Shown here piece by piece: positions 11,369 through 32,300 of a stretch of DNA of 46,922 nt. Made by a program: the position numbers and the translations under genes. Numbering within the stretch: the first letter of the stretch is position 1; every line of letters begins with the position of its first letter. The DNA comes from a virus. The notes below the pieces were generated by a model that was not told where the DNA came from, did not search any database, and was given only the letters and a program-made list of their open reading frames with translations. Where the stretch lies: positions 1 through 46,922 of the IMG/VR virus record IMGVR_UViG_3300007280_000004; one strand, 5' to 3'.

Positions 11369-12043
11369 ATGGCAGTCTCAATAAACAGAGTATATGAAAC
11401 AGTGCTATCTGTTTTAAATAAAGAGCAGAGAGGTTATTTACCACCTGAAGAATTCAACAGGTACGCTACTCAATCTCAACAAGAAATATTTGAAAAGTAT
11501 TTTTATGAGCTAAGCAGAGCAACTGCTACATATGGTAAAAAGCAAGATATTGCGAACGTTCCAGCACATATATTAGAAAAGCTTTCTAGTTTTAAAGCGA
11601 ACGCTACTATGTCTGATCTTAACCTACCTAGTGATTTATATAGAATAGAAAGTATATTATATAATGCAATACCTGCTTTTGAAAAAACATTAGCTGAGTC
11701 TGGGTATTTAGAAAGATCTACTCTAACACAAGGAACCACAGATTCGCCATATTTTACAAGGACTGGAAACACAATTGTTTTATACCCTGTAAAAGGCGGC
11801 AGTGATGTTATTACAATAGAATATTATAAAAAAATATCAGCAGATCCTGTATGGGGTGGAACAACTATTAATGGAAGCCTTGTTAATAATGCTGGTGCTA
11901 CCACTGATTTTGAGCTGCACGAGAGTGAAGAGTCTGAACTTATAACAAAAATATTAATGCTTGCAGGGGTCGCCGTAAGAGCAGCTGATGTATCACAAGC
12001 AGCTACAATGATGAATCAACAAATAAAACAATCTGAACAATAA
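11369..12043 (+). CDS. Neck/connector-like protein, paralog 1
   Basis: The 224-residue product begins MAVSINRVYETVLSVLNKEQ and shares a repeated N-terminal pattern with the next gene: V-S-I-x-R-V-Y-x-T-V-L, then EFN-YA-Q-Q-EIFEKYFY. The C-terminal ends also match in type (DFELHESEESELITKIL against DFELHPSEFPELVIKIL). Position after capsid and before the tail genes suggests a head-to-tail ring or adaptor protein. In crAss-like virions several ring proteins occupy this location. Its stop overlaps the next start (TAATG). Function is inferred from order and paralogy. Confidence 0.65.
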   Translation: MAVSINRVYETVLSVLNKEQRGYLPPEEFNRYATQSQQEIFEKYFYELSRATATYGKKQDIANVPAHILEKLSSFKANATMSDLNLPSDLYRIESILYNAIPAFEKTLAESGYLERSTLTQGTTDSPYFTRTGNTIVLYPVKGGSDVITIEYYKKISADPVWGGTTINGSLVNNAGATTDFELHESEESELITKILMLAGVAVRAADVSQAATMMNQQIKQSEQ

Positions 12044-12969
12044 TGAGTGTATCAATCGATAGAGTTTATCAAACGGTTTTAACCATTGTAAACAAAGAGG
12101 GGGTTGCTTATATTATGCCACAAGAATTTAACTTGTATGCAAACCAAGCACAATTAGAAATATTTGAAAAATATTTTTATGATGAATACCGCGATAATAT
12201 AAAACCACCTGTAAAAGGACATTACACTAGTGAAAATATAACAGAAAAACTGGCTATATTTAATAGAGAAGATAACTTAGTTGAAACATTGTATAAAAGT
12301 GGTGTTTGGAAATTTGAAGCTCCGTCTACAACATTTACGGTAGGAGCAACAAACCAATTGTTAGCAGCAGCTTCATCCACTGATGTTTGGAACTTACCAT
12401 CTTCATTTGATTCTATAAGTGCTAACAATATAAAATTATTTACAGATTCTGCCGGGGCTAACGAATATTTTGGTGATTATGAAATTTATGCAATTGGCGA
12501 TTCTAAATTTATATTTTCTTCAGTAAGCATTACAGGTTTATACGCCTTTAACATTACTCAAGGAGCTGTAAAGCATACACCCTATAAATTAATTGGGTTA
12601 TATTCTAATGGTATAAATATATCTGAAGTTGATAGAGAAAAAGTTTCTTTCTTATTAAGATCTCCATTAACAACTCCGTCTTCTTCACAGCCAGTATATT
12701 ATAGGGTTAATGAAACTGGAGGTGAATTAAGTGACGTTAAAATATACCCAAATACTATAAACGGTGTATCTGCATATTATATCCGTAAGCCAATTGACCC
12801 TTCATGGGCAGTTGCCGACGCTGATAAAGTTGATTTTGAATTACACCCTTCTGAATTTCCAGAGTTAGTAATTAAAATACTAGCATATATAGGGGTTACT
12901 ATAAACAGAGGTGATATTGCACAATTTGCGCAAGGAGAAGAAGTTAAAATTGCTAATACTCAACAATAA
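12043..12969 (+). CDS. Neck/connector-like protein, paralog 2
   Basis: This 308-residue protein is the tandem paralog of the preceding gene. N- and C-terminal thirds align by eye: the start MSVSIDRVYQTVLTIVNKEG, the segment NQAQLEIFEKYFYDEY and the tail DFELHPSEFPELV. The centre (about 85-190) carries an additional beta-rich stretch absent from paralog 1, with FTVGATNQLLAAASSTDVWN and an Ala/Gly-rich part. Both neighbours overlap in TAATG, so all three neck genes are probably co-translated. A ring, adaptor or stopper role in the connector is inferred; no direct homology to a characterised ring protein can be proved here. Confidence 0.65.
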   Translation: MSVSIDRVYQTVLTIVNKEGVAYIMPQEFNLYANQAQLEIFEKYFYDEYRDNIKPPVKGHYTSENITEKLAIFNREDNLVETLYKSGVWKFEAPSTTFTVGATNQLLAAASSTDVWNLPSSFDSISANNIKLFTDSAGANEYFGDYEIYAIGDSKFIFSSVSITGLYAFNITQGAVKHTPYKLIGLYSNGINISEVDREKVSFLLRSPLTTPSSSQPVYYRVNETGGELSDVKIYPNTINGVSAYYIRKPIDPSWAVADADKVDFELHPSEFPELVIKILAYIGVTINRGDIAQFAQGEEVKIANTQQ

Positions 12970-13901
12970 TGGCAGAGTCTAGAAAACTATATACGCCAAA
13001 AGCGTACTATGCAAAACACCAAGGTGATACAGCTAATATACCCGACGACTATAAAGGACTCGGGTATTACCGCAGAACTAATCTTGAGGATGCAATAAAT
13101 AACTTTATTGTAGCGTATATTGGAGAAGACAAAGCTTTAGCTAAAGTACCTAGATACGAAGTAGATTTTTGGGCACAACGAGGTGTGCAGGAGTTTAGTT
13201 ATGACATCTTACATAGTGAGAAAAGTGTAGAAATAGAATTAAGTGATGCTTTAACATTTCCTTTGCCTCAAGACTTTGTTGCGTATAATGCAATATCTCA
13301 AATGGAAAAAGATGGCACTAAAACCAGATTGTTCCCGCAGCGAAAAGTAAACAACCCAACCGCTCCGCTACAAGATGATGATTATGAATTTACTTTTGAT
13401 TCTAATGGAGATCTACAAGAAGCTAGTAAATCTACATCTATAACTAAATTTCAAGATGCTAGCAATTACGAAACAGATAATAGTGACAGAACAGAGCGTT
13501 TTATAGACGATGACTACCCATATGAAAATAAAAGATATGGCAGTAATCCAGAAGATATGAATTTGGTCCCTACTTTTGTACTAGACGAAGCAAATGGACT
13601 GATCTATTTTGATGGGTCATTGAAGAAAGATAAAACAATCGTTTTAGACTACATTTCTGATGGCTTAGCTGATAATGGAGATCTTACTAAGGTTTACATT
13701 CCAAAGCTTGCTGAAGACGCCCTATACGCTTATATGCTATACAACTTATCTAAAGTTCGACCAACGCTTGCTGGTATTATACCTTTATACAAAAAAGAAG
13801 CTAGTTCTAAGATGCGTAACGCTAAATTGCGTCTTAGCAATTATAATTTACCAGAGTTAGCTCAAGTGCTAAGGGGTAAAGCTAAATGGATAAAGCATTA
13901 A
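12969..13901 (+). CDS. Head-tail connector/adaptor-like protein
   Basis: The 310-residue product has a charged N-terminus. Its core contains YEVDFWAQRGVQEFSYDIL (about 61-79), then FPLPQDFVAYNAIS, and a C-terminal helix bundle ending in LAQVLRGKAKWIKH. This layout (helical N-core, a beta segment with LPxDFV, helical end) is seen in connector or ring proteins of podoviruses and crAss-like phages. It overlaps the previous gene in TAATG and is followed by an 87-base A/T intergenic region before the split tail protein. Assigned by order and pattern. Confidence 0.65.
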   Translation: MAESRKLYTPKAYYAKHQGDTANIPDDYKGLGYYRRTNLEDAINNFIVAYIGEDKALAKVPRYEVDFWAQRGVQEFSYDILHSEKSVEIELSDALTFPLPQDFVAYNAISQMEKDGTKTRLFPQRKVNNPTAPLQDDDYEFTFDSNGDLQEASKSTSITKFQDASNYETDNSDRTERFIDDDYPYENKRYGSNPEDMNLVPTFVLDEANGLIYFDGSLKKDKTIVLDYISDGLADNGDLTKVYIPKLAEDALYAYMLYNLSKVRPTLAGIIPLYKKEASSKMRNAKLRLSNYNLPELAQVLRGKAKWIKH

Positions 13902-13988: not shown

Positions 13989-16241
13989 ATGGCCGAAAGC
14001 AAAAGAACATTTCAAGCCGCTAAAATAGAGCGTGATCTAGATGAAAGATTAGTTCCTCCGGGAGCATATAGAGATGCTCTAAATGTAAGTGTTGCATCTT
14101 CAGAAGATGCTAATGTTGGAAGTTTAGAAAACTTGAAAGGTAATAAACAAGTATTAAGTTCATTTCCAAGTTATTTAGATAACAGCACAAACATAGGTGT
14201 AAAAGTTATTGGATCTATATCTCATCCGGAAGAAAATAAAATATACTATTTTTTCACAGGAAGCAACACTGATGGAATTGTAGAATACGACAATTCAGTG
14301 TCTCCAGCTGTAATAAAGCCTATAATCCTAGATGGAACAGAAGGTGTAAGTGTAATAACACAAGAAACCTTTACTTTTGCTGATGCTTTTGCAAGTGGAA
14401 CTATTTCAATAGACGGCGTAATATCTTTAGACGCTCAAAACGGTATAATAACCTGCTTAACCGAGAACTTTAATGAAACTGTTGATAATGCAAAAGTAAG
14501 AACTGTACAAGCTAATGTTAAAGCTCCTATTGGATATGCTAATACAGGACAATTTGTTTCTGGAACTTTATCAATTACTCAGCCTGCAAAAGGCGACCCT
14601 GTAGTATATTTAAAAGCAACAACAAATATAACAGATACCACAGCCACTTTTAACGGCTATTATACGTTTAATCCAGGTTTAACAGCTATAGGATTTAAAT
14701 ATATAGAAAATACAGGTGGATCAACAAGTCATACATTATATGACGAACCATTTTACGCAGGAATACCACAGGTCTACGGCAGAACAATAACGTTTTATGA
14801 CGCCGATACCCGAAAAACTTCTTTGCTTAACGTTCCGTCAAGTGACATTACAGTAGAAGATAAAAATGGGGCCGCTATATCAAGTAGTAATTATTCTATT
14901 TCTTCTGAATCACAAAATAGGCCGGCAATATTAGAATTTGATGAAAACTATAATATACAAGATTCGTTGCCTATAACATCTTTCCAAACCTCAACTGCTA
15001 CATCTACATCAACAGGTGTGTCACAGTCTCATGTAGAAACATCCGGAACAAATGTTCCTGTAACACCTATAGTTGCACAATTTAAAGCAGACATCACAGG
15101 GCTAACACCTGATACACAATATGTTGTTTTAGCTTACGCAACAAACTCTATAACAACAACTTATACGCCAATTGCAAAATTTAAAACAAATGTAGCGTCA
15201 GTAACATTACCTACATTCAGCAGCTCATCTGCTGTAGCAGGTACATCTTTAGTAACATTTAGAGCAACCCCTAACTCAAATGGAGGGGACACTGGGGCAA
15301 CATTATATGTCGTATCAAATGAACAAAGTACCGATAATATTGCAGCTTATAAATCAGCAGCTTATACGTTGGTCGGGGGAGGGACAGTAGCAGGTTATAC
15401 TTTATCAACCCTAGGGTCTTGGACAAGCGGCACGCAACAATCTGTTAGCGTTTCTACAACAGGTGGCAACTATAGAAAAGGCTTAGTTTTTGCTAAAAAT
15501 TCTTCTCCTTTACAAGACGGGACAGACAATGCTGGGTTTAAATTTGATACAGCTTTTGTACAAGCAACAGCAAACGTGCCTAATGTTAATGGGGCAGCTT
15601 CGTTTTCGGGATCTATGACTGGAACTACCGGAACAATTACAGCTGGACAAACATTAACATTTGTTTGGAGTGGTACTTCTACTGTTACAACATTACCAGT
15701 TGGAGGGCACACGGGAATGCATGGACAAATGACAGGCACGGGACTAACATGGATAACCTCTGGAGTTACAGGTAGTCCTTATAACGTCAACACAGTTGGA
15801 GGAACATCTTCTTGGAATGTAACAAAAACAATCACAGCACCAACTAGTCCGGGAACATATACATGGGATATGCGTGTGTTTTATGATAGTAATACGCAAG
15901 CCAATGGACAGGTCACAGGGTCTGTAACAGTTCCATCTCCACCACCTACTAGCGGAACTTTCACTTTAGATGCGGCTTTCCGTGTAGGGCCTAATATTGG
16001 GCAAACATATGGTGGTGGCATAGGCACAGGATTATTAGTTACAGGAAATCAATCAAGCACACAAATTGCTTCAGGAGATACAATACGTATTACATACAAT
16101 AACGGAAATAGTAGCGTTGATTTAGATATTACGAGCACCACTTATGGTTCTTCAGATAGCTTTTTTGGTTATACCTTAGCTGCTGGTACAGGAGGAATTG
16201 GATTTTCAAGCGGAACCACACTAAACTGGAGTCAAGTATAA
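13989..16241 (+). CDS. Muzzle/stabilisation-type tail protein, part A (N-terminal blades plus Ig/FN3-like domains)
   Basis: Residues 18-35 (DERLVPPGAYRDALNVSV), then SSEDANVGSLENLKGN and KIYYFFTGSNTDGIVEYD (84-101), are the N-terminal hallmarks of the beta-propeller tail protein of crAss-like and related podoviruses (muzzle or P22 gp10-like stabilisation protein). In that family one chain continues with the segments here found in the next two large ORFs. From about 350 the protein is Ser/Thr/Gly-rich and beta-stranded, with an FN3-like unit ending near TPDTQYVVLAYATN. It ends in an Ig-like region (about 520-665) and a last domain of about 80 residues. It probably closes the neck and displays host-binding domains. 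It has its own start with an A/T leader. Confidence 0.68.
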   Translation: MAESKRTFQAAKIERDLDERLVPPGAYRDALNVSVASSEDANVGSLENLKGNKQVLSSFPSYLDNSTNIGVKVIGSISHPEENKIYYFFTGSNTDGIVEYDNSVSPAVIKPIILDGTEGVSVITQETFTFADAFASGTISIDGVISLDAQNGIITCLTENFNETVDNAKVRTVQANVKAPIGYANTGQFVSGTLSITQPAKGDPVVYLKATTNITDTTATFNGYYTFNPGLTAIGFKYIENTGGSTSHTLYDEPFYAGIPQVYGRTITFYDADTRKTSLLNVPSSDITVEDKNGAAISSSNYSISSESQNRPAILEFDENYNIQDSLPITSFQTSTATSTSTGVSQSHVETSGTNVPVTPIVAQFKADITGLTPDTQYVVLAYATNSITTTYTPIAKFKTNVASVTLPTFSSSSAVAGTSLVTFRATPNSNGGDTGATLYVVSNEQSTDNIAAYKSAAYTLVGGGTVAGYTLSTLGSWTSGTQQSVSVSTTGGNYRKGLVFAKNSSPLQDGTDNAGFKFDTAFVQATANVPNVNGAASFSGSMTGTTGTITAGQTLTFVWSGTSTVTTLPVGGHTGMHGQMTGTGLTWITSGVTGSPYNVNTVGGTSSWNVTKTITAPTSPGTYTWDMRVFYDSNTQANGQVTGSVTVPSPPPTSGTFTLDAAFRVGPNIGQTYGGGIGTGLLVTGNQSSTQIASGDTIRITYNNGNSSVDLDITSTTYGSSDSFFGYTLAAGTGGIGFSSGTTLNWSQV

Positions 16242-16251
16242 AAAATAAATT

Positions 16252-16455
16252 ATGCGTAGATTTAAAAATAAATGGAAAATAGTTTTAGAAAATTCTTTGT
16301 ATTACTTAGAGCACAACAAAGGCACTACTGATGATAACCCTATATGGGTTAGAGAAAATATAGACGGTTTTGTTACAAAAGAAGGGGCGGATGATTACTT
16401 ATCTAAAACTGTTATTTTAGAAAAACAATTATACGTGGACAATAGAGACAATTAA
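16252..16455 (+). CDS. Hypothetical 67-aa protein between split tail genes
   Basis: The small soluble protein begins with a basic segment (MRRFKNKWKIVLENSLYYLE) and has no membrane helix. It lies 10 bases after part A and 3 bases before part B of the split tail protein, so it belongs to the same transcript. Sequence features (NPIWVRENIDGFVTKEGADDYL) do not match a family I know. It might be a small assembly factor or a remnant of the chain between the two parts. Confidence 0.5.
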   Translation: MRRFKNKWKIVLENSLYYLEHNKGTTDDNPIWVRENIDGFVTKEGADDYLSKTVILEKQLYVDNRDN

Positions 16456-16458
16456 AAT

Positions 16459-19400
16459 ATGGCAAGTTCAATATTAAATTTTAAAGATGATAATTTAATC
16501 ACCGGGGTTAATATTATTGATGGTATGTTGTTTTTTACAGACAACGAAAACGAGCCTAAAAAAATAGATATAGAAGCTTTTAAAGCTGCTAACCATTCTT
16601 CAGGTACCACTAATATTTACGGCAGAGCATTTCAGGAAAGAGATATAACGGTTATTAGGCCGGCTCCCATGAGTGCTTTATCTACTCAATTAACAACGTT
16701 AGACACCGATACTAATGTAATAACCCCTTACGCTCAAGAAGTGCAGGTTGCAACAAAAAATGCAATTGTTGATAGCACTACTAAAGCTAAAATGTACGGT
16801 TACGTAGCTTCTAATAGTGCCCCGGTAGCTTCTTATGGTTTTTACTATCTTAAAGCTTCGTCTTTGCCAAGCGTATTGGAACTAACAGGGGGAATAAAAG
16901 TAGAGTCAACAAGCTTAGATAGTAGTGGAAATTTTAGTTTTACACTAGATACTTTAGAAGAGAATACTAGGTATTATTTTATAGCTTTTGGATTTAATAA
17001 TATTGGGCAAGAAATATTAGCAGATAATATTTTAACTTTTAGGACTAAAAATGCTACACTTTCGTTAACAGCCCCAGTTTGTCAAACATTAGAGCCTACT
17101 AGAAAAGATTCAGCTGGTAATTATGTTTTTAGAGGCAAAATAACAGACACTGGAGGTGCGGCTACAAACACTATTGAGGCTAGCTTTTACTATATAGAAT
17201 ATGGCTTATTAGATGGTATAGCTAAACCCTCAACACTTGTGGGTGTATCAGGAGCTAGAAGAGTACAAGCTAGGCTAAACGCGAGCAGCGGAGACTATGA
17301 GTTTAATTTTAATACCGGTGAATATTTTTATGTAGAATTTCATGTTTTAACATCCGAAGGTGATGACGAAGGAGGGGTTAAGGGCGGCTTAGGTGTGACA
17401 GGCGTAACAACAGTGTTAAAACCTAAAGTTAGATACATAAATAGCGAAATAGTTAACGGAACTCCTTTAGACATTATAGTAGAAGGCCAAGTTACCAAAC
17501 AAAATGGTATAATAAGTGAAAGAGGTTTTTATGTTTCAAAAACAGAATCAAATTTAGAGCAGAACTATTACCAGCATGTGAGCAACAACAATTTATACAA
17601 GGTAGTTGTGCCTCACAATCAATTAAATGCTACGGATGTATTTAAACTTAGCCTATCAAGTATCTCTGGTTTTACAATAAACAGAGGAGAAACAATATAT
17701 GTAATGCCTTTTGCTTCTAATGGAGTTGAAGGTATTGGAGGCCAAGTGCCAATAACTATACCTGCTTTACAAGGCGGTAATGAAACTGATATTGTAGTAC
17801 CTACTATAACAACCGCAGCAATTGAGCTTGTGGGAACGGCCCAAGAAATTGAATTAAAAGTAGGAGCATTGTGCGTGGCAAATGGTATAGACGAAACCGT
17901 AGATACCGGTCTCTCTAGCGATAGATCTAAAATATCAGCTATGGGGGTTTACGTATATAAAGGAACCTTTAATGAGTTAGATAATCTTAGCGACACTGAA
18001 AAACAGAAAAAAATGCTTGAATTATTTAATTCAGGTAACAATATTACTCAAATAACTTTTACACAAGCAAATGCTTTAAGTATTATAAATGCTAATGCCC
18101 AAGCTATCAACGTAACCACAGTTGGTAGGCTTGTTCAGCAAAAATTTAAAGGTAATCCAAAGGTTCCTATAGATAGAGGGTTTCATTATTACACAATGGC
18201 ATGGGCGACCAATCAAGTAGGTGCTGGATATGGACTTGTTACAGGTATTAAAATAGAAGAGGCGGAAGAAACAATTCCTAGCTTTATAACTAATCCCACT
18301 GTTTTTAATGAATCTACAAATGGTATAAAATTCACGGGATATTTAAGTGGTTTTTGGGGAGACGTACAAGGTGATATTTATGATGCGGGGTTCGTTTATT
18401 CTGTTGAAAAACCGTTTAATCCAAATAATGCAAAAACAATTAGTTTATTAAGTTTAAATGGTAATGGAATTATTAAAAATAATTCTACTGTAGCTAAACT
18501 TAATCAAAACTGGGATGACCCAGTTCCATCTACAGCTGAAAGATCTTGGCAGATTGAAGTTCACCAATCAGACCCAGCGACAGTAAACATGCTACAAACT
18601 GGTATTACTGCAACTGTTCAAGCTTATATTCAAATGTCTAGTGGCGGGGTTAAACATTTTGCTAAAACAATTGGTTTTAATGGTGCATCTTCACCTAGTA
18701 CACAACAATGGACTACCTTTGAAAATGCAAAAACCGTAGGTACTCCTAGTTTTATGTTTTTTAATGTTGAAGAACCTAGCATTAATCAAACTCAAGCAAT
18801 GGTTAAAGGCAAAATTGCTACAGGGGATGATCAATTAAGATTATCTAATCTTTTTGAAGATTCAACCGCTGGTATATATTTTGCTAAATCAGCTGACCAC
18901 AATACAGCATCCGCCTTAATTGCAAATGGCACAAAAGTAAAACCACCATTTAATTTTCAAGATCAACCTAGTTCATATGTTCATTTTCAATATAAGTTTG
19001 GAGAAAGAAATTACGATGATACCTTTGCGGGAGGTTTTGATGGAGTTGCATTAGAAGCAGGCACAGAATACGCTATGGTATGCAAAGTGGTTAATTCCGC
19101 AGGCAATGCTGTTTCTGATGTATTACGTTTTACAACTGATCCAATTGTTTCAGTCCCTTGGGTCGATAGTAATTCTGAATTTAGACTAGGAGCAGATCCG
19201 AGCCCTGCTATATACGCTACAGGGACGGTTAAGGGGGGTGGAAATCATATAAGATCTTCGAACAAGTTACATTATATAAAAGCTAGTGATTTTACAGGAT
19301 CAACCCCTGACGAGCTAATAGCGGACCCAGACAGTAGTGTTATAACCGACGGCGTCAAGCTCAATGGCTCTAGTGCTGTGTTTGCTAATATATATGATCT

Positions 19401-20124
19401 TAGTCCTGGTACTGTATACAAGCTGTGCTGGGAATTAGATTTTGTTGATCACGGAATTATAAAATCCAAGGTTTTTGAACAAAAAACATATGGTAATGTT
19501 GCAGTGCCTGTTGTTTATGGTGTTTTTTCTGATACTGTAAGTTTAGAGTTTAATCATAACGGAGATGTAATAAGTAGGGGAGGGGGCCTGGACGAGGTAC
19601 ATACTGAAGCTAATTCTGGCCCTTATAATTCTGTTAAAATAACAACTATTCCTCCTACTTCTGATTTTGGTTTTAAAAAAGGAAATGGTGATTGGAGCTT
19701 TATGGGAGTTAGAAAAGAAACATCTAATGGTTTTAAATATCTTACTTTTCAGCCGCATACTCTTTTTGAGCCCGGTATCGCAGCTCCTCGACAAAGATGG
19801 ACATTACAAGTGTATAATTTAAATGATCCCTCAAAATTAATTAATATTTCTTTATTTCAAATGTCAAACCCAGGCGATGGAGGTTTTGCGAGCGGGGATT
19901 ATGGGAGTGATGGAGTTAGGCAACATGAAGAAAATAATAGTTTGTATGGAAACAACGGGTTTGGTCCTACTAACGCAACCCCTTCTGACCCAACCGATAC
20001 TGATGGTGCTCCTGGAAATAATACAGGCTTATTGATAAAAGATGACGACGTTATGGACCAAAATGGAGACCCTGTGTGGGACAACAACCCTATTCCTCCC
20101 TCGTTACTTGGAGGTTTTTTATAA
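16459..20124 (+). CDS. Muzzle/stabilisation-type tail protein, part B (propeller segment plus FN3-like array)
   Basis: Residues 11-36 contain NLITGVNIIDGMLFFTDN followed by EPKKI, and ERDITVIRPAP is at 60-70. These are the middle hallmark segments of the same beta-propeller family as part A. From about 95 the 1221-residue chain is an array of FN3/Ig-like units. Each unit has a Y-GFYY or GFYVSK strand, then an ENTRYYFIAFG or GTEYAMVCKV strand, then FRTK or FTTD. At least four such units are recognisable, in the style of Bacteroidota surface proteins. The last 80 residues are Gly/Asp/Asn-rich and likely flexible. A virion-surface adhesive role is inferred. No self-cleavage motif was seen. Confidence 0.66.
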   Translation: MASSILNFKDDNLITGVNIIDGMLFFTDNENEPKKIDIEAFKAANHSSGTTNIYGRAFQERDITVIRPAPMSALSTQLTTLDTDTNVITPYAQEVQVATKNAIVDSTTKAKMYGYVASNSAPVASYGFYYLKASSLPSVLELTGGIKVESTSLDSSGNFSFTLDTLEENTRYYFIAFGFNNIGQEILADNILTFRTKNATLSLTAPVCQTLEPTRKDSAGNYVFRGKITDTGGAATNTIEASFYYIEYGLLDGIAKPSTLVGVSGARRVQARLNASSGDYEFNFNTGEYFYVEFHVLTSEGDDEGGVKGGLGVTGVTTVLKPKVRYINSEIVNGTPLDIIVEGQVTKQNGIISERGFYVSKTESNLEQNYYQHVSNNNLYKVVVPHNQLNATDVFKLSLSSISGFTINRGETIYVMPFASNGVEGIGGQVPITIPALQGGNETDIVVPTITTAAIELVGTAQEIELKVGALCVANGIDETVDTGLSSDRSKISAMGVYVYKGTFNELDNLSDTEKQKKMLELFNSGNNITQITFTQANALSIINANAQAINVTTVGRLVQQKFKGNPKVPIDRGFHYYTMAWATNQVGAGYGLVTGIKIEEAEETIPSFITNPTVFNESTNGIKFTGYLSGFWGDVQGDIYDAGFVYSVEKPFNPNNAKTISLLSLNGNGIIKNNSTVAKLNQNWDDPVPSTAERSWQIEVHQSDPATVNMLQTGITATVQAYIQMSSGGVKHFAKTIGFNGASSPSTQQWTTFENAKTVGTPSFMFFNVEEPSINQTQAMVKGKIATGDDQLRLSNLFEDSTAGIYFAKSADHNTASALIANGTKVKPPFNFQDQPSSYVHFQYKFGERNYDDTFAGGFDGVALEAGTEYAMVCKVVNSAGNAVSDVLRFTTDPIVSVPWVDSNSEFRLGADPSPAIYATGTVKGGGNHIRSSNKLHYIKASDFTGSTPDELIADPDSSVITDGVKLNGSSAVFANIYDLSPGTVYKLCWELDFVDHGIIKSKVFEQKTYGNVAVPVVYGVFSDTVSLEFNHNGDVISRGGGLDEVHTEANSGPYNSVKITTIPPTSDFGFKKGNGDWSFMGVRKETSNGFKYLTFQPHTLFEPGIAAPRQRWTLQVYNLNDPSKLINISLFQMSNPGDGGFASGDYGSDGVRQHEENNSLYGNNGFGPTNATPSDPTDTDGAPGNNTGLLIKDDDVMDQNGDPVWDNNPIPPSLLGGFL

Positions 20125-20155
20125 AATAATTAAAAAAATATCATAATATTTAAAA

Positions 20156-23100
20156 ATGGCAGAAAAAAAACCTTTTGAAAAAATATTCCCTTACTTTAGT
20201 TATAGGTGGAGATATGAGGATGGTCAGTACTCGCCATATGCGGTATTTACAAAAGCTCAGTTTGTTTCGAAAGACCCAAATATTTCAGATTACTTAAAAA
20301 AGGGGCATAATACATCTGTTGTAAATGAGTTAAAAGTAATTAACTTAACGAACATACCTAGAGGAGGACCTGACGTCGTTGCAATAGATATACTATATAG
20401 AGAATCTATTTCTACTACTATATATATATTAAAAACCATTGAAATAAGTAAAAACGATAGGGGTTCAGGTTTTGAAAGCATTCAAATTGATAAAAGATCT
20501 TTTGGATCAGCATTACCTGATTCTCAACTTTCTCGCCATTTTGATAATGTGCCTTTAAAAGCTAAAGCACAAGAAATAACAGCGAATCGGTTAATGTATG
20601 GTAATTATACTCATAAATATGACATACCTGAACCGTTAAGAATAAAAGTTAATGTTACCCCTGTGCTACAACCGCACAATGGTCCATCTGTTAAAACAAA
20701 TAGAGATTACGAAGTTGGCGTTGCATATTTAGACGCATACGGGCGTGTAGGTAATTTGCTCACACAAAGCATAAGTGGTTCAGACGGTGAGGGTTCTGTT
20801 TTTACAACTGATTTTAAATATAAAAATAGAATAAATTTAACAGCTCAAATATTAAGCCCTCCGCCTACATGGGCAAAATCGTTTAGATATTATATTAAAG
20901 ACAAGTCTAACGCACACTTTAACTTAACAGGTTTTAATATATATAATGATGGGTCTGCGTCTGATAATTCTTCTGATAACGTATATGTACAGTTTAATTC
21001 AAATGACAGAAACAAGATTACAGAAGAAAGCATACTAATACCTAGAAGACATGACTTTGATGAAACAGATGTTTTGTTTACAGCCGAGTCAAGACACCCT
21101 GTGTTGGATATAGAAAACGAAGCACCTGATATAGTAATAAACCAGGTTAATGAAAGAAAGTTAGTAAAAATAGCTGAGTTTAAAGATGTAAAATCTGGAA
21201 GTGGGACTAGTATGCTGATACACTCTTCGTACTCAAACATTAACGTAGCCACTGTAACTACTTCAAATACTTTTTTTCACTTAAAAGATAGAAGCGGTGA
21301 AACTCATGATTCTCAGGGAAATGTTCAATTTTTTAATGATTACATAAGGAGTCAAGACGACAACCCAGCGCAATTATTTGACAGTAAAAAAACGCCAATA
21401 AACAACGTTGGAGGGTTACAAACAGTAGACATTAGTGCGTATCCCGAAAGGCTAGCAATTGAGCTATCTAATAACAACGGAACTAGTGACAGATGTTTAA
21501 TAGATAGTATAGAGTACGGGGTTGCTTCAAGTAGTCAAAGAAATTCTTTTAAAATAACTTTAGGGACCACATTAGACGAATCAGGAGCATTAACTTCAAC
21601 TACAGGTTTTACTACTGTTCCAAGTAGTTTTAAAATGGACACCTACGATCAATCTATAAGGTTTTTTAAATTTGGTATTTCTGACGATGGTAAGGATAAA
21701 CTTAAAGGCTCCTTTTTTGTTAAAATACCGAGGGAGGTAGCTAATAATACAGGTATTACAGCTTTACCAACAGGTCAAACTCCATATAATGAAGATGGAA
21801 ATATTATTACTACCAACATAAAACAAATAAATTTTGAAACAGAGCCTGTTGATGAGTCAAATTTAAACCTATACTGGGAAGACGGTAACACAAGGCCTAT
21901 AAGCAAACATAATAATATAAACCATTTAGAATGGTCTAATTGTATAGCCACTAAAACGAGTAAAACAGGGGATGTTTATTTAGAAAGTATTAATTTACTA
22001 GATAAATTTAACACTGTTAGTATGGCTAAAGGCACCAGAGTAAACACCCCTGACACTAGGTATGCTAAAGAAACTAGAAAAGCTGGTTTAATTTTTTCAG
22101 GGTTATATAATTCTAAAACAGGAATTAATGAACTAAACCAATTTAGTCTAGCCGATGGCATTCAAAAAGAACTTGAACCTAATTATGGCGGAATACAAAA
22201 GCTATACACATTAGATACAAATTTATTAGCATTTGCTGAAGATAAAGTCTTTAGAATACTAGCAGATAAAGATGCGCTTTTTAATGCAGATGATGGAGTT
22301 AACGTAACTGCTACTAATTTAGTTTTAGGGCAAGCAATGGTTTACCAAGGAAATTATGGGATTAGCACACACCCTGAATCTTTAATATATTTTAATAACC
22401 AGCTTTATTTTACAGATGCAAAAAGAGGAGCTGTAATGCAATTAACCCCATCTAACGGTCAATTATTTCCAATTAGCTCAAGAGGTATGTCAAATTTCTT
22501 TAGAGATAGATTACACTCAGCAGACGAACTTATTGGCATGTATGATGGACATAAAAAGCAATATGTATTATCTATTAAAGGTTATGATCAAAACGACCTA
22601 TCTATAGGTTCTGAATCAATACCTAATGAAACCAGCGATATAACTATTGCTTATAGCCCTAGGTCTGAATCTTGGCCATCTAGATATAGTTTTATTCCCG
22701 AAAGCGGTTTGTCTATGAACAATAAGTTTTATACTTTTAAACAAGGGAAAGCGTATGTTCACCATAACGATTCGGTTAATAGAAATACATTTTATGGAAC
22801 AGCTTATAATTCAGAGGTTGAGTTAATATTTAACGATGACCCTATGGCTGTAAAAGAGTTTTTAGCTTTATCTTATGAAGGTACTACAGGCTGGTCAGTT
22901 AGTAAAATTGATACAGAAAGTAACGATCCAGCACTAACATCTACATGGCCATTTGTTAAAAAAGAAGATAAATATTTTGCGCCTATAGTTAGCCAAGAAA
23001 ACTATTATGGTGTTACTGACCAAAGTTTGGGATCTGCAACAGCCGATGATGGTTCAACCGTGTATGTACAAGGTACACGTGATAAATCAGGCATTAAAGG

Positions 23101-23191
23101 TTTTTACAACAAAGTAAGAATGCAAAATACAGCCACAGCAAAAGCAGAAATATTTGCTATAAACACAGAAAATTTTATTAGTCAAACTTAA
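20156..23191 (+). CDS. Muzzle/stabilisation-type tail protein, part C (C-terminal propeller)
   Basis: The 1011-residue protein opens directly with FPYFSYRWRYEDGQYSPY (11-28). In single-chain homologues this segment follows the ITVI region of part B. Further family-like segments are MYGNYTHKYDIP (147-158), the YEVGVAYLDAYGRVGN stretch, and the C-terminal blades at about 650-830 (INELNQFSLADG, YFTDAKRGAVMQLTP, GMYDGHKKQYVLSIKG). It has no FN3-like array. Parts A, B and C together cover the family's hallmarks in order, so they probably co-assemble. Its leader before ATG is A/T-only, like other genes here. Confidence 0.7.
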   Translation: MAEKKPFEKIFPYFSYRWRYEDGQYSPYAVFTKAQFVSKDPNISDYLKKGHNTSVVNELKVINLTNIPRGGPDVVAIDILYRESISTTIYILKTIEISKNDRGSGFESIQIDKRSFGSALPDSQLSRHFDNVPLKAKAQEITANRLMYGNYTHKYDIPEPLRIKVNVTPVLQPHNGPSVKTNRDYEVGVAYLDAYGRVGNLLTQSISGSDGEGSVFTTDFKYKNRINLTAQILSPPPTWAKSFRYYIKDKSNAHFNLTGFNIYNDGSASDNSSDNVYVQFNSNDRNKITEESILIPRRHDFDETDVLFTAESRHPVLDIENEAPDIVINQVNERKLVKIAEFKDVKSGSGTSMLIHSSYSNINVATVTTSNTFFHLKDRSGETHDSQGNVQFFNDYIRSQDDNPAQLFDSKKTPINNVGGLQTVDISAYPERLAIELSNNNGTSDRCLIDSIEYGVASSSQRNSFKITLGTTLDESGALTSTTGFTTVPSSFKMDTYDQSIRFFKFGISDDGKDKLKGSFFVKIPREVANNTGITALPTGQTPYNEDGNIITTNIKQINFETEPVDESNLNLYWEDGNTRPISKHNNINHLEWSNCIATKTSKTGDVYLESINLLDKFNTVSMAKGTRVNTPDTRYAKETRKAGLIFSGLYNSKTGINELNQFSLADGIQKELEPNYGGIQKLYTLDTNLLAFAEDKVFRILADKDALFNADDGVNVTATNLVLGQAMVYQGNYGISTHPESLIYFNNQLYFTDAKRGAVMQLTPSNGQLFPISSRGMSNFFRDRLHSADELIGMYDGHKKQYVLSIKGYDQNDLSIGSESIPNETSDITIAYSPRSESWPSRYSFIPESGLSMNNKFYTFKQGKAYVHHNDSVNRNTFYGTAYNSEVELIFNDDPMAVKEFLALSYEGTTGWSVSKIDTESNDPALTSTWPFVKKEDKYFAPIVSQENYYGVTDQSLGSATADDGSTVYVQGTRDKSGIKGFYNKVRMQNTATAKAEIFAINTENFISQT

Positions 23192-23196
23192 ATTAA

Positions 23197-23682
23197 ATGA
23201 ATATAATCAAATCTATTAAAAATAAACTATTAAATAAATCTTTTAAAAGCAAAACAGAAAATGCTTTGAATAAAATATACGCTACAGAATCTAACGAGGT
23301 TCTCATACATAATAATGGGAAGCTTGTTAGAGAAGGTGGTGATTTATTTAAAATTGAAAACGAAACGACAGACGGTATTTATTTAAGAAGGATGTTGCTT
23401 AATAAAGGAACAGCTATAATAAGTGCTATACACAAGCGAGATCACGCTTGGTTTTTGCTTGAAGGAGATATAACTATATCTACCGCTGCAGGCAAAGAAA
23501 ATTACACAGCACCTTATGTCGGTTTTTCAAAAGCAGGTACCCAACGGGCTATTTATGCAAACGAAATGTCTATATTTCAAAACGTGTTTCAAAATCCGTT
23601 GGATCTAAAAAGCATTGATGATTTAGAAGATTATAATTATTGTATGACTGAAAGCGAATATAAAAAATATAAAAATAAATAA
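23197..23682 (+). CDS. Cupin-fold phage protein
   Basis: The 161-residue protein contains a compact jelly-roll pattern (about 60-140): GIYLRRMLLNKGTAIISAI, HKRDHAWFLLEGDI, then GKENYTAPYVGFSKAGTQRA and NEMSIFQNVF. The HKRDH and EGD residues sit where cupins bind metal, although the second histidine motif is not intact. Similar small cupin-like proteins occur in tail regions of many phages with unknown function. It starts five bases after part C of the split tail protein and precedes internal virion genes. A structural or assembly role is more likely than an enzymatic one. Confidence 0.6.
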   Translation: MNIIKSIKNKLLNKSFKSKTENALNKIYATESNEVLIHNNGKLVREGGDLFKIENETTDGIYLRRMLLNKGTAIISAIHKRDHAWFLLEGDITISTAAGKENYTAPYVGFSKAGTQRAIYANEMSIFQNVFQNPLDLKSIDDLEDYNYCMTESEYKKYKNK

Positions 23683-26399: not shown

Positions 26400-29300
26400 A
26401 TGTTCGAATACGACGGAGATCAATATACAGAGCAAGAAATAATTGATGCTGCTTCTAAAGCTGGGTTAAGTTTTGAAGATTACACATCTAAACATGGTAT
26501 AATTGCTGTTGTTCAAGAGGGAAAGACAAACGCCACTGCGGAGGAAACTGCACCTGTAGTGGCAGAAACACCCGTAGATACGGATTTGCAGTTGGAAAAT
26601 GGTTCTTTGGATTTTCCAGGAAAAGTAGTTAGAATAAAAAGGAAAGACGCTGCAAGGGGATACGATGAATACAGCTATGCTGAAATTCAACAAAAAATTC
26701 AAGATCCTAACTTTAGAAAAGGACAAAAAAGATTTGAAAATGTAGAAGCATATGTTGACGCATTTGGAGGTCAAGCACAAATTGTTGATTTAGGAGCTGA
26801 GCAGGTTGGAGATTTAAAAGATTCTAGCGAAAGAGAAGCTACTGAAGCGGTTAAGTTTGAAGATGGCCCATCTGTGCCGGTAAGCGATTTTGAACAAGAA
26901 GTAGAAGTCGTACAGGGCTTTGAAGAAGTTAATAAATTAAACTTTGAGGCAGAAAACAATATAGTTGAAAATTATGCGGACATAGATGCTTATAATGAAA
27001 TAGGGTCAAAAAGTGTAGGCGAAATTAATTTTGAATTGCCTAAGCAAGAGCTAGATAAAAGCATACAAGACAAGTATACTGCTGGTTTTGGCGAAGATAA
27101 ATTCATTAAAACCTTTGATAGCCAAGTCCTTAATATAAAACAAGAGGATATTGATAAGAAAGGTGGCGAAATATTAAGCAAATATAAGTTTAATAAAGAA
27201 ACTGGTGAATTCCCTGATAAAGATTCAGAGCGGAAAGCTTTAGAGGAGTTTGAAGAATATCAAACTAATTTAATACAAAACGCAAGAGAAAACTCTGTAG
27301 GCTATCAATCAAGAATAAAAGCGTATAAAAATGCTTTTGTTAATGAGATTGAAAAGCAAAATACTAAGTTTGATGAAATAAAAGCACAAGAGCTGTCTGA
27401 TAAAACAGTACAGGAGGTATTGCCTCCTGTTGCTAGAGATGTGTTAAATTTTATTGGCATTGACACAGCTGTAGCAAGAACTGTGCTTGAAGCTACAAAA
27501 AGTGCTACCATGGGCCTACCAGCTGTTGGCGGGATGGATAAAATGCAATCTCTAGGTGTACTTAGAGATGCTCACCAGTCTTTGAGAGCGCGTGCAAATA
27601 ACCAAAACACCTTTGAGGGAGAAGATACCGTTATAAACGGGGTGGCTGTAAGTGAATATACACCTATAAGAGTAAAGAACCCATTATATACACAATGGAA
27701 AAACTCAGACCCGGACACACGAGATATTAACCCTCCTAGAGAATTTTCTTTTACATTAATAGATACAGAAAAGCAAAGACAAGCTGGACAATATGTAGAA
27801 GGTGGGAACAAAAGGTTTAAAACCATACATGGGTCTGGAATAGTCAATTATTTTGATACTGAGTTTGAAGCGGAGACTTTCTTTAGTAAAAGAATGGGGG
27901 AAACGGCTGACGATGTATATAAGCTTTTTGATTTAAAGAGCGACTTTGACGGCATGCTGTCAAAAATAAAGGCCGCACCTGAATTTACTAACGAAAAGGG
28001 TGAGTATGATTCTTCTAAGTTTACGTATGAAAATTTAAGAGATGCTATAGGTACAACAGCTACTCAAATGCTAATGGCTAGGCTTACACTTGGTCTTTCT
28101 TCTTATTCTCAAGAAACTGGAAACATGTTCGAACAAGTGTTAGAAGGTAAGGCGGTTGAGAAGTATGGAGAAGAATTTTTAGCACTAAGCGAAGATAAAA
28201 AGTTAGAAAAATATCTGCAGTTAACTAAAGACGGCGAGATTAACTACAATGATATTCGCATAAGCGGTACGCAGATCGCTTCTTTAGATTTATTCGGTTC
28301 GGCCACCGCATTAAATCAAGTTCCAAAAATTGACGGTTCAATAATCAGAAACTTGATGAAAAGCAACTGGAAAGGCGCGGTAAAAGAAGGTAAAAATGTT
28401 GCTAAAAATGCATTGAAAGGTGGTTTAACAGAAGTACCCACTGAATCTGCACAAGAACTAATATCCGGAAGAGAAGTTAATAAGCAGCTCTACGGCATGG
28501 AGGGTGCATATGTTACTGATGAACAAATAAGATCTGTTAAAGAAGTAGGTTTTCAGTCTTTAATAGGTGTTTCAGGAACAGTAGCTAGTGGTAATACAGC
28601 AGCTAGAGGTATAAGACATTTAAAAAGAAAATTAGCTACAGGAAACAATAGAGCTATTCTTAATGATGCTAAAGCGGCATTGGGAGATGTAGATCTCGTT
28701 TATGAGTCTAGCGTAAATCAGGTTAACAAAAAACTTAAAGAAGGCTCGCTTTCAAAATTCGAAGCCGATGCTGAGTTACGTAGATTAAAAAATTCTAGAG
28801 ACAACCAAATAACTGCTTTATATAAAGCGCAAGAAGTCGCAACAGGTAGCAAATACAAAAATTACGAACCTGAAGCAAGAGAGGAAGCCTTAAACCTAAT
28901 AGTTGATAACCTTTATTTAAACGAAAAAGTTAGTGACATTGATGCTGATGCTGAAAAAGCAAAAGCTACAGGTTTTTACAGCGAAGATGACTTTGATGGA
29001 AGAAAGCAAGCTATTAAAGATAAAATGGTGGACAACGAGATTGAACGCCAAATTATTGATGCTAAGCAAAATTATCTTTATGCTGGATCTCAAATGAGAG
29101 AATTTATAAATAATAATCCAGATAAATTTAACAATGCACGTGCTGTAGCGTTTGAAACTAGACAAGAAGCTGAGGAGTATTTTAAAACAAAATTTGGTAA
29201 AGATTTTAAACCTGAAGGTAGATATAAACAACTATTAGATGGTGATGTATTTGGATTTTATGATCCAGATAAAAACCTTATAATTGATGTAAAAGAAAAT

Positions 29301-32300
29301 CTATTTAACCAAGGAAACGGAAATAGAGAATTACAACTACGAAATGCTAGAATAGCTTCTAACGTTGTTTATCATGAAGGTGGTCATGCTTTAATGTCAA
29401 CATTGGAGGACTCAGAATTAGCTTCAATTAAAGAAGGTTTAGAAGATTTTATGGCTAATTCATTAGACCCTAAAATAATTTCTGTATACAATTCTGTAAA
29501 ACAAAGAGAAGCAAACCAGAAAAACAAAAAGAAAAGGATAGTTAATGAAGAATTTATAGCTAGTGTTTCAGATGCTTTAAGAGAATATGATATAGCTAAA
29601 GGCGATGTTGCTACGCAAGCTGGTTTATCAAAGCTTGGTACTTTAATAAATGGCAAGCTATCTACCGCGGCGCCTGCTGGTTTATCTTTCAAAGGATTAG
29701 AAAGCGGTACTCAGACTTTAGAGTTTATTAAAAAATATAACACTTTTACTGGAACTGTAGATCCTCAGTTTAGTGAAGGTCGTACTGTAACTCCTTCTGG
29801 TGAAGAAAAAGATACAACAGTTAGCGAAGAACAAGTTGCTTCTGAAATAGTGGGAGAAGTAAGGTTTGAAGATGATTCAATAAACGAGCAGTTTAAAGCA
29901 TTTGCTTATGACGGTAAAGTTAACAATGCTCCTGAATCATTCCATGCTATGGCCGCTTATCAATATGAGCCATTAGCTCAAGCGGTTGTTAATACATTAG
30001 CGAATAAAGGTATTGTAAGCGGATCAGCAGAACAAAATAACCTTATAATGGGCTATTTGGAAGACGCAACAAATAGACAAGAATTAGTAGAACAGCTTGT
30101 TATTCCTGTCGGAGGTAATCAAGCAAGTTCTTTACTAGGTTTGGCTAAAACGTATAATCCAGAAATTGGTTCTTTTGGCGGTTATGCTAAAGGGTTTTTA
30201 GCAGCTCGGGCTATTAGACAGCTTGAGAATAAAATGAAAGCTTCCTTTATTGGTTCTCAAAAAATAGATTCACCTGAGTCAAAAGAAATTGAAGCAGGAG
30301 AACAGCAGATTGAGATTACGCAGCCTGTAGTTGAGCGTTTAAAGTTGAATGATAAAATATCTGAAGATTTAAATAAGCTTGGCGAAATGGCTATAATACA
30401 AGCTGAAAAAGCTATAACAAGCAAAGATCTTTCAGATTTAAAGAAAGTAAACCTTAGAAATAAAACTTTTGGTGATATTTTTGCTAAAAGATTATTTAAT
30501 GATGTTAAAAACGTACTTGGTAAGAACACTAAAACAAAAAGTGATTTTACAGACTTTTTAAACAACAACTATGATGCTTTATCTGATATAGCCTTAAACT
30601 ATATTGATTTTCAAAAAGGTTCTGGCCCAGCATCAGTTTGGTCTTTAGACAGTCCGCCTACTAGAGAAGAGTTTATAGAATACTACGAAGCTAAAGATGA
30701 AAAAACTTCAACTAGAGGTGATCGTAAAAAGTCATTGAATAATGCTATAGCTAGAGCAATATCTAACGATGTTAGAAATAAAATGGTTGATGATAACCCA
30801 TCAATTAATGAAGGCTTTGAAAAAGTAGCTGGAATACCATTAGCTAGTGAGGTATTATATGATTTACCTTTACAAGAAAAGAAAGATTGGTTTGTTACGT
30901 TAAAAGACGCCGAAGTTGATTTAAAAGGTGTTAAAATATCGTCTTTATCTACAGAGGCAGAGATTGATGCCTTGATAGACTATTATGAGCAACACGTATG
31001 GTCACACATACCTAAAGGATTATTTATTTGGAGTGAGGCTGATACTGGCAACGTTCTTAATAAAAATGTTGGTGCTGGAATTATATCTAAAGCAGGAGCG
31101 CTAAATCAGCCAATATTAGATGAAAAAGGCAATCCTCAAATGGTGAAAAGAGGCAGTGTTATGAAGCCTAATAAACCAAGATATGAGCTTGCTAAATACA
31201 TGGCTGAGCAGACAAAAATAAGAGCCAACGCTTTTAAAAACTGGGGTGATGATATTTTACTTGATGGTAAACCAATAGAAAAATATAGAAATGACCATTA
31301 TTCTAAAACGGTACAAAAACCATTAGAAAATATTGCAGCCGCATATAAGAATGGTAAATCACCTAGCCAAAGTGATATTGATGTCGTAGTAGCTTTTAAT
31401 AGAAAAAATAGAGCTATTGGTGAAGAAGTCTACAAAAGATTTAATAAAGCTATAAAAGACGATAAACAAAACGCGATAGGAATTGCTGCTTTCTTAAAAT
31501 TAGCGGGTAACGACACTGAGCATTTTAATAGACAATTAGCTGAAGTTGTGGGCATATCTCACACTCCGGAAGGTAGAGGTAAAACTTATGAGTGGGAACA
31601 CGCTATGCAACAAGTCCACGTAGGTAAAACTCTATTAGCTGCAATGCTCGATAAAGATAGAAATTTCGATGCCGAGTTTGCTGCTATAATGAATAACTTT
31701 AAGTTAATTGGTTTAGACAATAAGCATAACCATATGCTTAATAAGACCGGCTACAAAAACTCTATGGGTAAAGGCTGGGATGTGTTTAAAAGTTCTTGGC
31801 TATCAAGATATTTTAATGATCAAGTTGCTGAAATAGGTGGTATACCTCCTAACAGTTTAGTTGGATTAGATGGAAGAACATTTGATGAAATATACAACGT
31901 TGATGTAAACGGTAATTCTACTAAGGCTTTAGCATCTGAAAAACTTAGTGATGAATTTAACCAAATGCTTGAAAGAGTAAAAGGTGTTAAAGCAGAAGCA
32001 AGATATTCACAAGACAGGGCTAATAAACTAGCAGGTAACAAAGGTAAATTTAAATTCTTTGTCCCTTATTCTGCTGAAGATTATTTAGGTTTAGTTTACC
32101 CTACTCTTGGTAAGGGCAAAGAAGGTGATAGAAACTTACAATGGTACAAAGATAATATTGTTAATCCTTTTGCCATTGGTATTGCTAACTACGAAAAAGC
32201 TAAGGTTGAATCATTACAACAATGGCGTAATCTTAAAAAGCAAGTTAGTAAAACACCAGCCAAGCTTAATAAAGAAGCTACGCGTGGATTTACCAATGAA

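Follow-up and report, generated by a model that had tools for sequence, protein, structure and literature searches.

Gene content and context of the locus

The window, i.e., the whole stretch of 46,922 nucleotides that was analyzed, is part of a 47,903-base virus record (IMG/VR IMGVR_UViG_3300007280_000004). Its terminase, portal, capsid, and ring-type genes are followed by three large open reading frames (ORFs), here called A, B, and C (Table 1), which including their stops span positions 13989-16241, 16459-20124, and 20156-23191. They lie in three different frames and end in TAA. As a preliminary description of this DNA had stated, each has its own ATG and A/T-rich leader. The motifs which that description had placed at the gene starts were located there: the first residues of A are MAESKRTFQAAKIERDLDERLVPPGAY, LITGVNIIDGMLFFTDN occupies residues 13-29 of B, and FSYRWRYEDGQYS starts at residue 14 of C.

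Table 1. Features of the muzzle locus in the window
Feature	Coordinates	Strand	Evidence
Tail protein gene immediately 5' of A	12969..13901	+	phrog_13977
A core (residues 1-102): putative muzzle N terminus (ring-joining part) and propeller blade 1	13989..14294	+	phrog_14478, gp44 alignment, fused-only HMM
A array: variable inserted domains, possibly Ig/FN3-like	14295..16238	+	Low, uneven conservation across relatives
67-aa ORF separating A and B	16252..16455	+	Position; relatives have other, unrelated genes there
B core (residues 1-72): putative propeller blade 2	16459..16674	+	gp44 alignment, fused-only HMM, L016 match
B array: ~1150 residues of variable inserted domains	16675..20121	+	fn3 in 2/10 relatives, dN/dS
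C: predicted IG1, blades 3-7, IG2, distal domain, and C-terminal ring-joining part	20156..23188	+	crAss_MUZ_C, phrog_14478, fold model

Upstream of A, matches to phrog_6681, 6547, 13704, 14543, and 13977 reproduce the order expected around a muzzle gene (portal, capsid, ring proteins, muzzle). The structural gene order of Cellulophaga phage phi38:1 is similar, with a virion structural protein gene at the position of phrog_13977. Two adjacent ring-type genes (11369-12043 and 12043-12969) both belong to PHROG 14543 and are 41% and 30% identical in two stretches, while the close relatives L001 to L004 (related loci are numbered with the prefix L) carry a single PHROG 14543 gene. The ring gene thus seems to have been duplicated in the window lineage, with an insertion.

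Directly 3' of the muzzle, an acetyltransferase-like gene is present in several relatives (L001, 13123-13527; L005, 17433-17843; L092, 15575-15985). The window has a different gene there (23197-23682, 161 aa), which is 62% identical to its counterpart in L004. Downstream of the tail genes, positions 26400-34283 encode a 2627-residue protein without a Pfam match.

Identification of A, B, and C as pieces of one muzzle protein

The proposal that one muzzle protein is split into three genes was confirmed by a Pfam match, a fold match, core profiles, and a phylogenetic tree: A, B, and C are, in this order, consecutive portions of a single ancestral muzzle (tail nozzle) protein of the crAss001 type. 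Pfam crAss_MUZ_C (PF25729) matched residues 875-944 of C (E value, 2.4e-10; 41.2 bits against a cutoff of 27), and C matched phrog_14478 with an E value of 3.9e-81. The start of A matched the start of the same family (residues 5-162 versus 2-143; E value, 4.5e-14). The closest annotated sequence relatives are the single-chain phrog_14478 proteins of Cellulophaga phi38:1 and Flavobacterium elemo phages; phi38:1 (recorded as Pervagoviridae) and Elemovirus, rather than Crassvirales records, are the nearest named relatives.

For C, a search against PDB sequences gave no convincing relative, and one was obtained by fold comparison only. The AlphaFold model of C had the phicrAss001 muzzle as its top PDB matches (7qol_P, E value of 1.9e-16; 7qok_A, E value of 4.1e-16). 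Its alignment with 7qol_P (Z score, 14.4; root mean square deviation [rmsd], 5.8) covered 556 residues between muzzle residues 176 and 1244, a range that spans the crass domain inside IG2. Other nozzles ranked below the crAss001 muzzle (SU10, Z score of 12.4; P22, 11.3; T7, 9.7 to 9.8). Profile comparison additionally matched C residues 670-1007 to residues 1055-1370 of gp44, the phicrAss001 muzzle protein. No match was obtained with tblastn of B or blastn of the A-B stretch, both against phages, and hhalign of the short C1, C2, and C3 cores against gp44 alone was uninformative.

The part of the muzzle that precedes the C alignment was found in the other two ORFs. The A core aligned to gp44 residues 1-128 and the B core to residues 108-187, up to the start of IG1, the first Ig-like domain of the muzzle. 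Profiles built from single-ORF relatives (fused-only HMMs) detected the A core of the window with an E value of 3.1e-28 and the B core with an E value of 1.3e-25, and the B core also matched the fused protein of L016 from residue 247 of the latter. As the compact fused relative L061 aligned to the crAss001 muzzle from residue 50 and C from residue 176, the muzzle stretch 50-175 is the share of A plus B. Residues 57-170 of L061 aligned with YWTD propellers, LRP6 among them, over about 84 residues, which corresponds to two blades.

By strand pattern and gp44 alignment, the A core is read as blade 1 and the B core as blade 2, so that the N-terminal ring-joining part and blades 1 and 2 appear to be present in A and B. 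In the fold alignment, C starts at IG1, not at a blade, and keeps the fold of gp44 from there on. From the gp44 and L061 alignments, one break would separate blade 1 from blade 2 and the other would separate blade 2 from IG1. AlphaFold confidence was moderate for C (mean pLDDT of 66, with low values for residues 845-1011) and poor for fused L061 (44.9); from the latter model, only the N-terminal strands and the fold matches were used. Therefore, the blade borders rest on the crAss001 alignment and strand patterns.

The domain order of the three ORFs is shared with gp44 (PDB 7qol, 7qok; PMC10172136), and parts of all three have sequence similarity to it. gp44 likewise has a domain inserted at the IG1 position and is encoded after a ring protein gene. 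However, the 1371 residues of gp44 form a single chain in which blades 1 and 2 are not separated by a large insert, whereas the window encodes three chains with arrays. phi38:1 gp097 and the Flavobacterium elemo proteins, with 1324 and 1470 residues, are likewise single chains. Their loops at the two break sites are short, and their structural genes are arranged much as in the window (portal, structural genes, muzzle). The beta-propeller nozzle fold of C is shared more widely, by P22 gp10, T7 gp12, and the SU10 nozzle, but these are single chains that lack the large distal domain and are not known to be split (PMC10172136).

Conservation of the three-gene layout

The ORFs of 174 loci were searched with six core profiles. 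In 104 distinct contigs the full core set was found in the same order in a single ORF, as the preliminary description had stated for crAss-like and related podoviruses, and the order of the cores is therefore not due to chance. The fused ORF of L016, for example, contains the three motifs at residues 20, 258, and 520. The separate A, B, C layout was present in 26 distinct contigs, i.e., the window and 25 further IMG/VR contigs (31 loci before repeated contigs were removed), as well as in a Bacteroidetes metagenome-assembled genome (MAG) contig found among genome contigs (L180). In the window and these 26 further contigs, the single-polypeptide form of the muzzle, which is usual without defining the family, was not found. 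Both the bacteria infected by the named relatives and the MAG contig, possibly a binned virus, point to Bacteroidetes as the probable hosts.

Across the three-gene members, the parts are bounded by TAA stops and their own ATGs, with gaps of 3 nt to 1.4 kb and variable relative frames. In ten members checked, B started 12 residues before the LIT motif and C started 15 to 16 residues before YRW, with an in-frame stop just upstream of both ATGs. Most relatives carry a gene of 69 to 84 aa between A and B, and some have none or two genes there. The preliminary description had pointed to a 67-codon ORF at this place; its position was corroborated, but its sequence is not conserved, differs from the 69- to 84-aa genes, and had no match in PHROG or Pfam.

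These boundaries bear on two ways in which the breaks might be only apparent. Assembly errors, sequencing errors, or decay are negligible as an explanation, in keeping with the earlier judgment that sequencing error is unlikely: the layout is common to 27 contigs from many samples, the stop and ATG boundaries are clean with conserved starts, and all parts are under purifying selection. The conserved layout shows that the A/B and B/C breaks are not frameshifts of this assembly. Such artifacts do seem to occur in the family. The muzzle of Maribacter phage Panino (L006, position ~10277) is annotated as two genes, apparently because of one frameshift within the propeller part of C, and L046 looks broken compared with its close relative L045; neither was counted as a further split.

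It is also highly improbable that expression yields one chain through programmed frameshifting, ribosome bypassing, stop codon readthrough, intron splicing, or protein splicing. Introns and recoded stops are known in crAss-like phages, intron endonucleases are annotated in crAss001, and the fused relatives indicate that a single chain is functional. However, the gaps range from a few nucleotides to 1.4 kb with extra genes inside, relative frames differ among relatives, A and B end in TAA, and, in the members checked, the ATGs of B and C keep the same register and are closely preceded by an in-frame stop. Rfam families, introns included, were absent from the window region and eight related loci. 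Recoded stops were rejected, as the stops of 20 plus-strand ORFs comprised 18 TAA, 2 TGA, and no TAG. Readthrough from the small ORF into B was likewise rejected: the two share a frame in the window, but the frame is variable in relatives.

Inserted arrays and the origin of the breaks

In the window, the A and B cores are followed by arrays of about 650 and 1150 residues, respectively, and conservation of the A array among relatives is low and uneven. Each break had been proposed to follow a long inserted array, and the median loop lengths between cores agree with this (638 and 1214 aa in the three-gene clade versus 103 and 173 aa in fused relatives). An Ig/FN3 identity of the arrays is weakly suggested by sequence: fn3 was detected by Pfam in 2/10 B proteins (best E value, 3.1e-5), and the Pfam search of the window's own A and B returned no significant Ig-like, FN3, or BACON domain in the arrays. 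One fused relative has a 1493-aa loop, and loop expansion alone therefore does not force a break. Single-ORF fused muzzles of more than 3700 residues with very large inserts were observed in L016 (9263-20435) and L052.

In the tree of C cores, the three-gene clade was monophyletic (support, 0.999), with 22 members, of which 21 have three genes and one is partial with C only. L032 was its sister (support, 1.0), and fused forms lay outside. In L032, A is separate while B and C are fused. As L032 has the A/B break only and occupies this sister position, the A/B break most simply preceded the B/C break. The A-B loop of L032 is expanded and broken (1041 aa, including a 506-aa gene), while its B-C loop is 28 aa and unbroken; in this comparison, the loop that expanded is the loop that broke.

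Selection, divergence, and possible exchange

In close pairs, dN/dS was 0 to 0.12 for the A core and likewise 0 to 0.12 for the B core, up to 0.32 for C, and up to 0.47 for the arrays; in close pairs of relatives, the A array ranged from 0.04 to 0.47 and the B array from 0.15 to 0.33. In most close pairs, the A and B cores had the lowest dN/dS of all parts. At equal divergence of C, conservation of the B core matches that in fused proteins, whereas the A core of the three-gene clade, when compared with fused relatives, has an identity of 0.39 to 0.41 versus an expected 0.47 to 0.48. Overall, the selection pattern fits blades that are still locked into a shared fold.

The slightly faster divergence of the A cores would also agree with a reading in which C closes alone and A and B are separate adhesin fibers that dock on the muzzle or elsewhere via their old blade segments. 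Indeed, all domains after muzzle residue 176 are retained in C, its model folds as a propeller, and in three relatives (L021, L022, and L025) the array gene carries no blade. We nevertheless consider this reading rather unlikely. The whole blade sequence is kept in the A and B cores, which match fused-only profiles with E values of ~1e-20 to 1e-30 and in most close pairs experience stronger purifying selection than any other part. Furthermore, C opens at IG1, where a fused chain would go on, and the downstream order is intact.

Exchange of adhesin modules at gene boundaries, as suggested earlier, received some support. Between L013 and L015, the A arrays are 74% identical over their full length, while the B arrays are 28% and C 68% identical. 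In L021, L022, and L025, the A array is a gene of its own (369 to 376 aa); the L021 array gene shares 81% identity with the fused form of L023. Covalent attachment of array to blade is therefore not universal. Arrays may thus be exchanged or rearranged at gene ends.

Proposed assembly of the split muzzle

We consider it likely that the three chains coassemble and build a single muzzle propeller, A and B each acting as a cartridge of blade plus adhesin. The ancestral muzzle was split at the two loops that carry long accessory inserts. C would make the subunit body (IG1, blades 3 to 7, IG2, and the distal domain), to which A would add the N-terminal ring-joining part plus blade 1 in trans and B would add blade 2 in trans. 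The separately translated chains would associate and close one seven-bladed propeller per subunit, and six such propellers, presumably a hexamer, would make up the tail-tip gate. The C-terminal arrays of A and B would project outward and could touch the cell surface. As each array terminates together with its gene, recombination at gene boundaries could remove, add, or swap arrays while leaving the reading frame of the gate intact.

A working principle of this type is known from the incomplete propellers of Sec13, which is completed by a blade of Sec31 or Nup145C, and of Seh1, which is completed by a blade of Nup85 (PMC8907234). These are eukaryotic coat and pore proteins with one donated blade, and no homology is claimed. 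A beta-propeller is usually seen as one closed chain, whereas the tail-tip gate studied here appears to consist of three chains with cuts between blades. Propellers of the muzzle and nozzle type have been described before; the new aspect is the split between blades into separate genes. A published account of such a split was not found in the literature searched, which excludes many subscription journals. The arrangement suggests a route by which Bacteroidetes phages could diversify surface-contacting parts while the tail gate stays undisturbed.

Splits at other loops

We give roughly even chances to a broader view of the muzzle as a platform with plug-in blades, in which separate blade-plus-adhesin cartridges complete a conserved propeller in trans, the arms are swappable and could even be mixed within one hexamer, and splitting occurred repeatedly, at more than one insertion loop. 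The division of a large protein into subunits could be studied in the natural series of fused, half-split, and fully split forms that these phages would offer. Breaks appear to have arisen independently outside the three-gene clade. In L151, a separate break bounded by a clean stop and an ATG divides B from C. Three lineages (the group of L005 [split muzzle gene at 14854-17412], L089, L090, and L092; L154; and L158) are broken at a third loop, near residues 808-829 of C, and an ATG opens every downstream part that was read. As L151, L154, and L158 are single contigs, each of these breaks could still be an error. Caudoviricetes phage ctfjg026 (MW202828), together with L089, L090, and L092, resembles the window in having a muzzle divided at an insertion loop, with an additional gene separating the parts, but a different loop is broken and the group lies on a different branch of the tree. 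The gene inside the third-loop break in L005, L089, and L092 encodes 183 to 311 aa and is annotated in MW202828 as a putative glycosidase.
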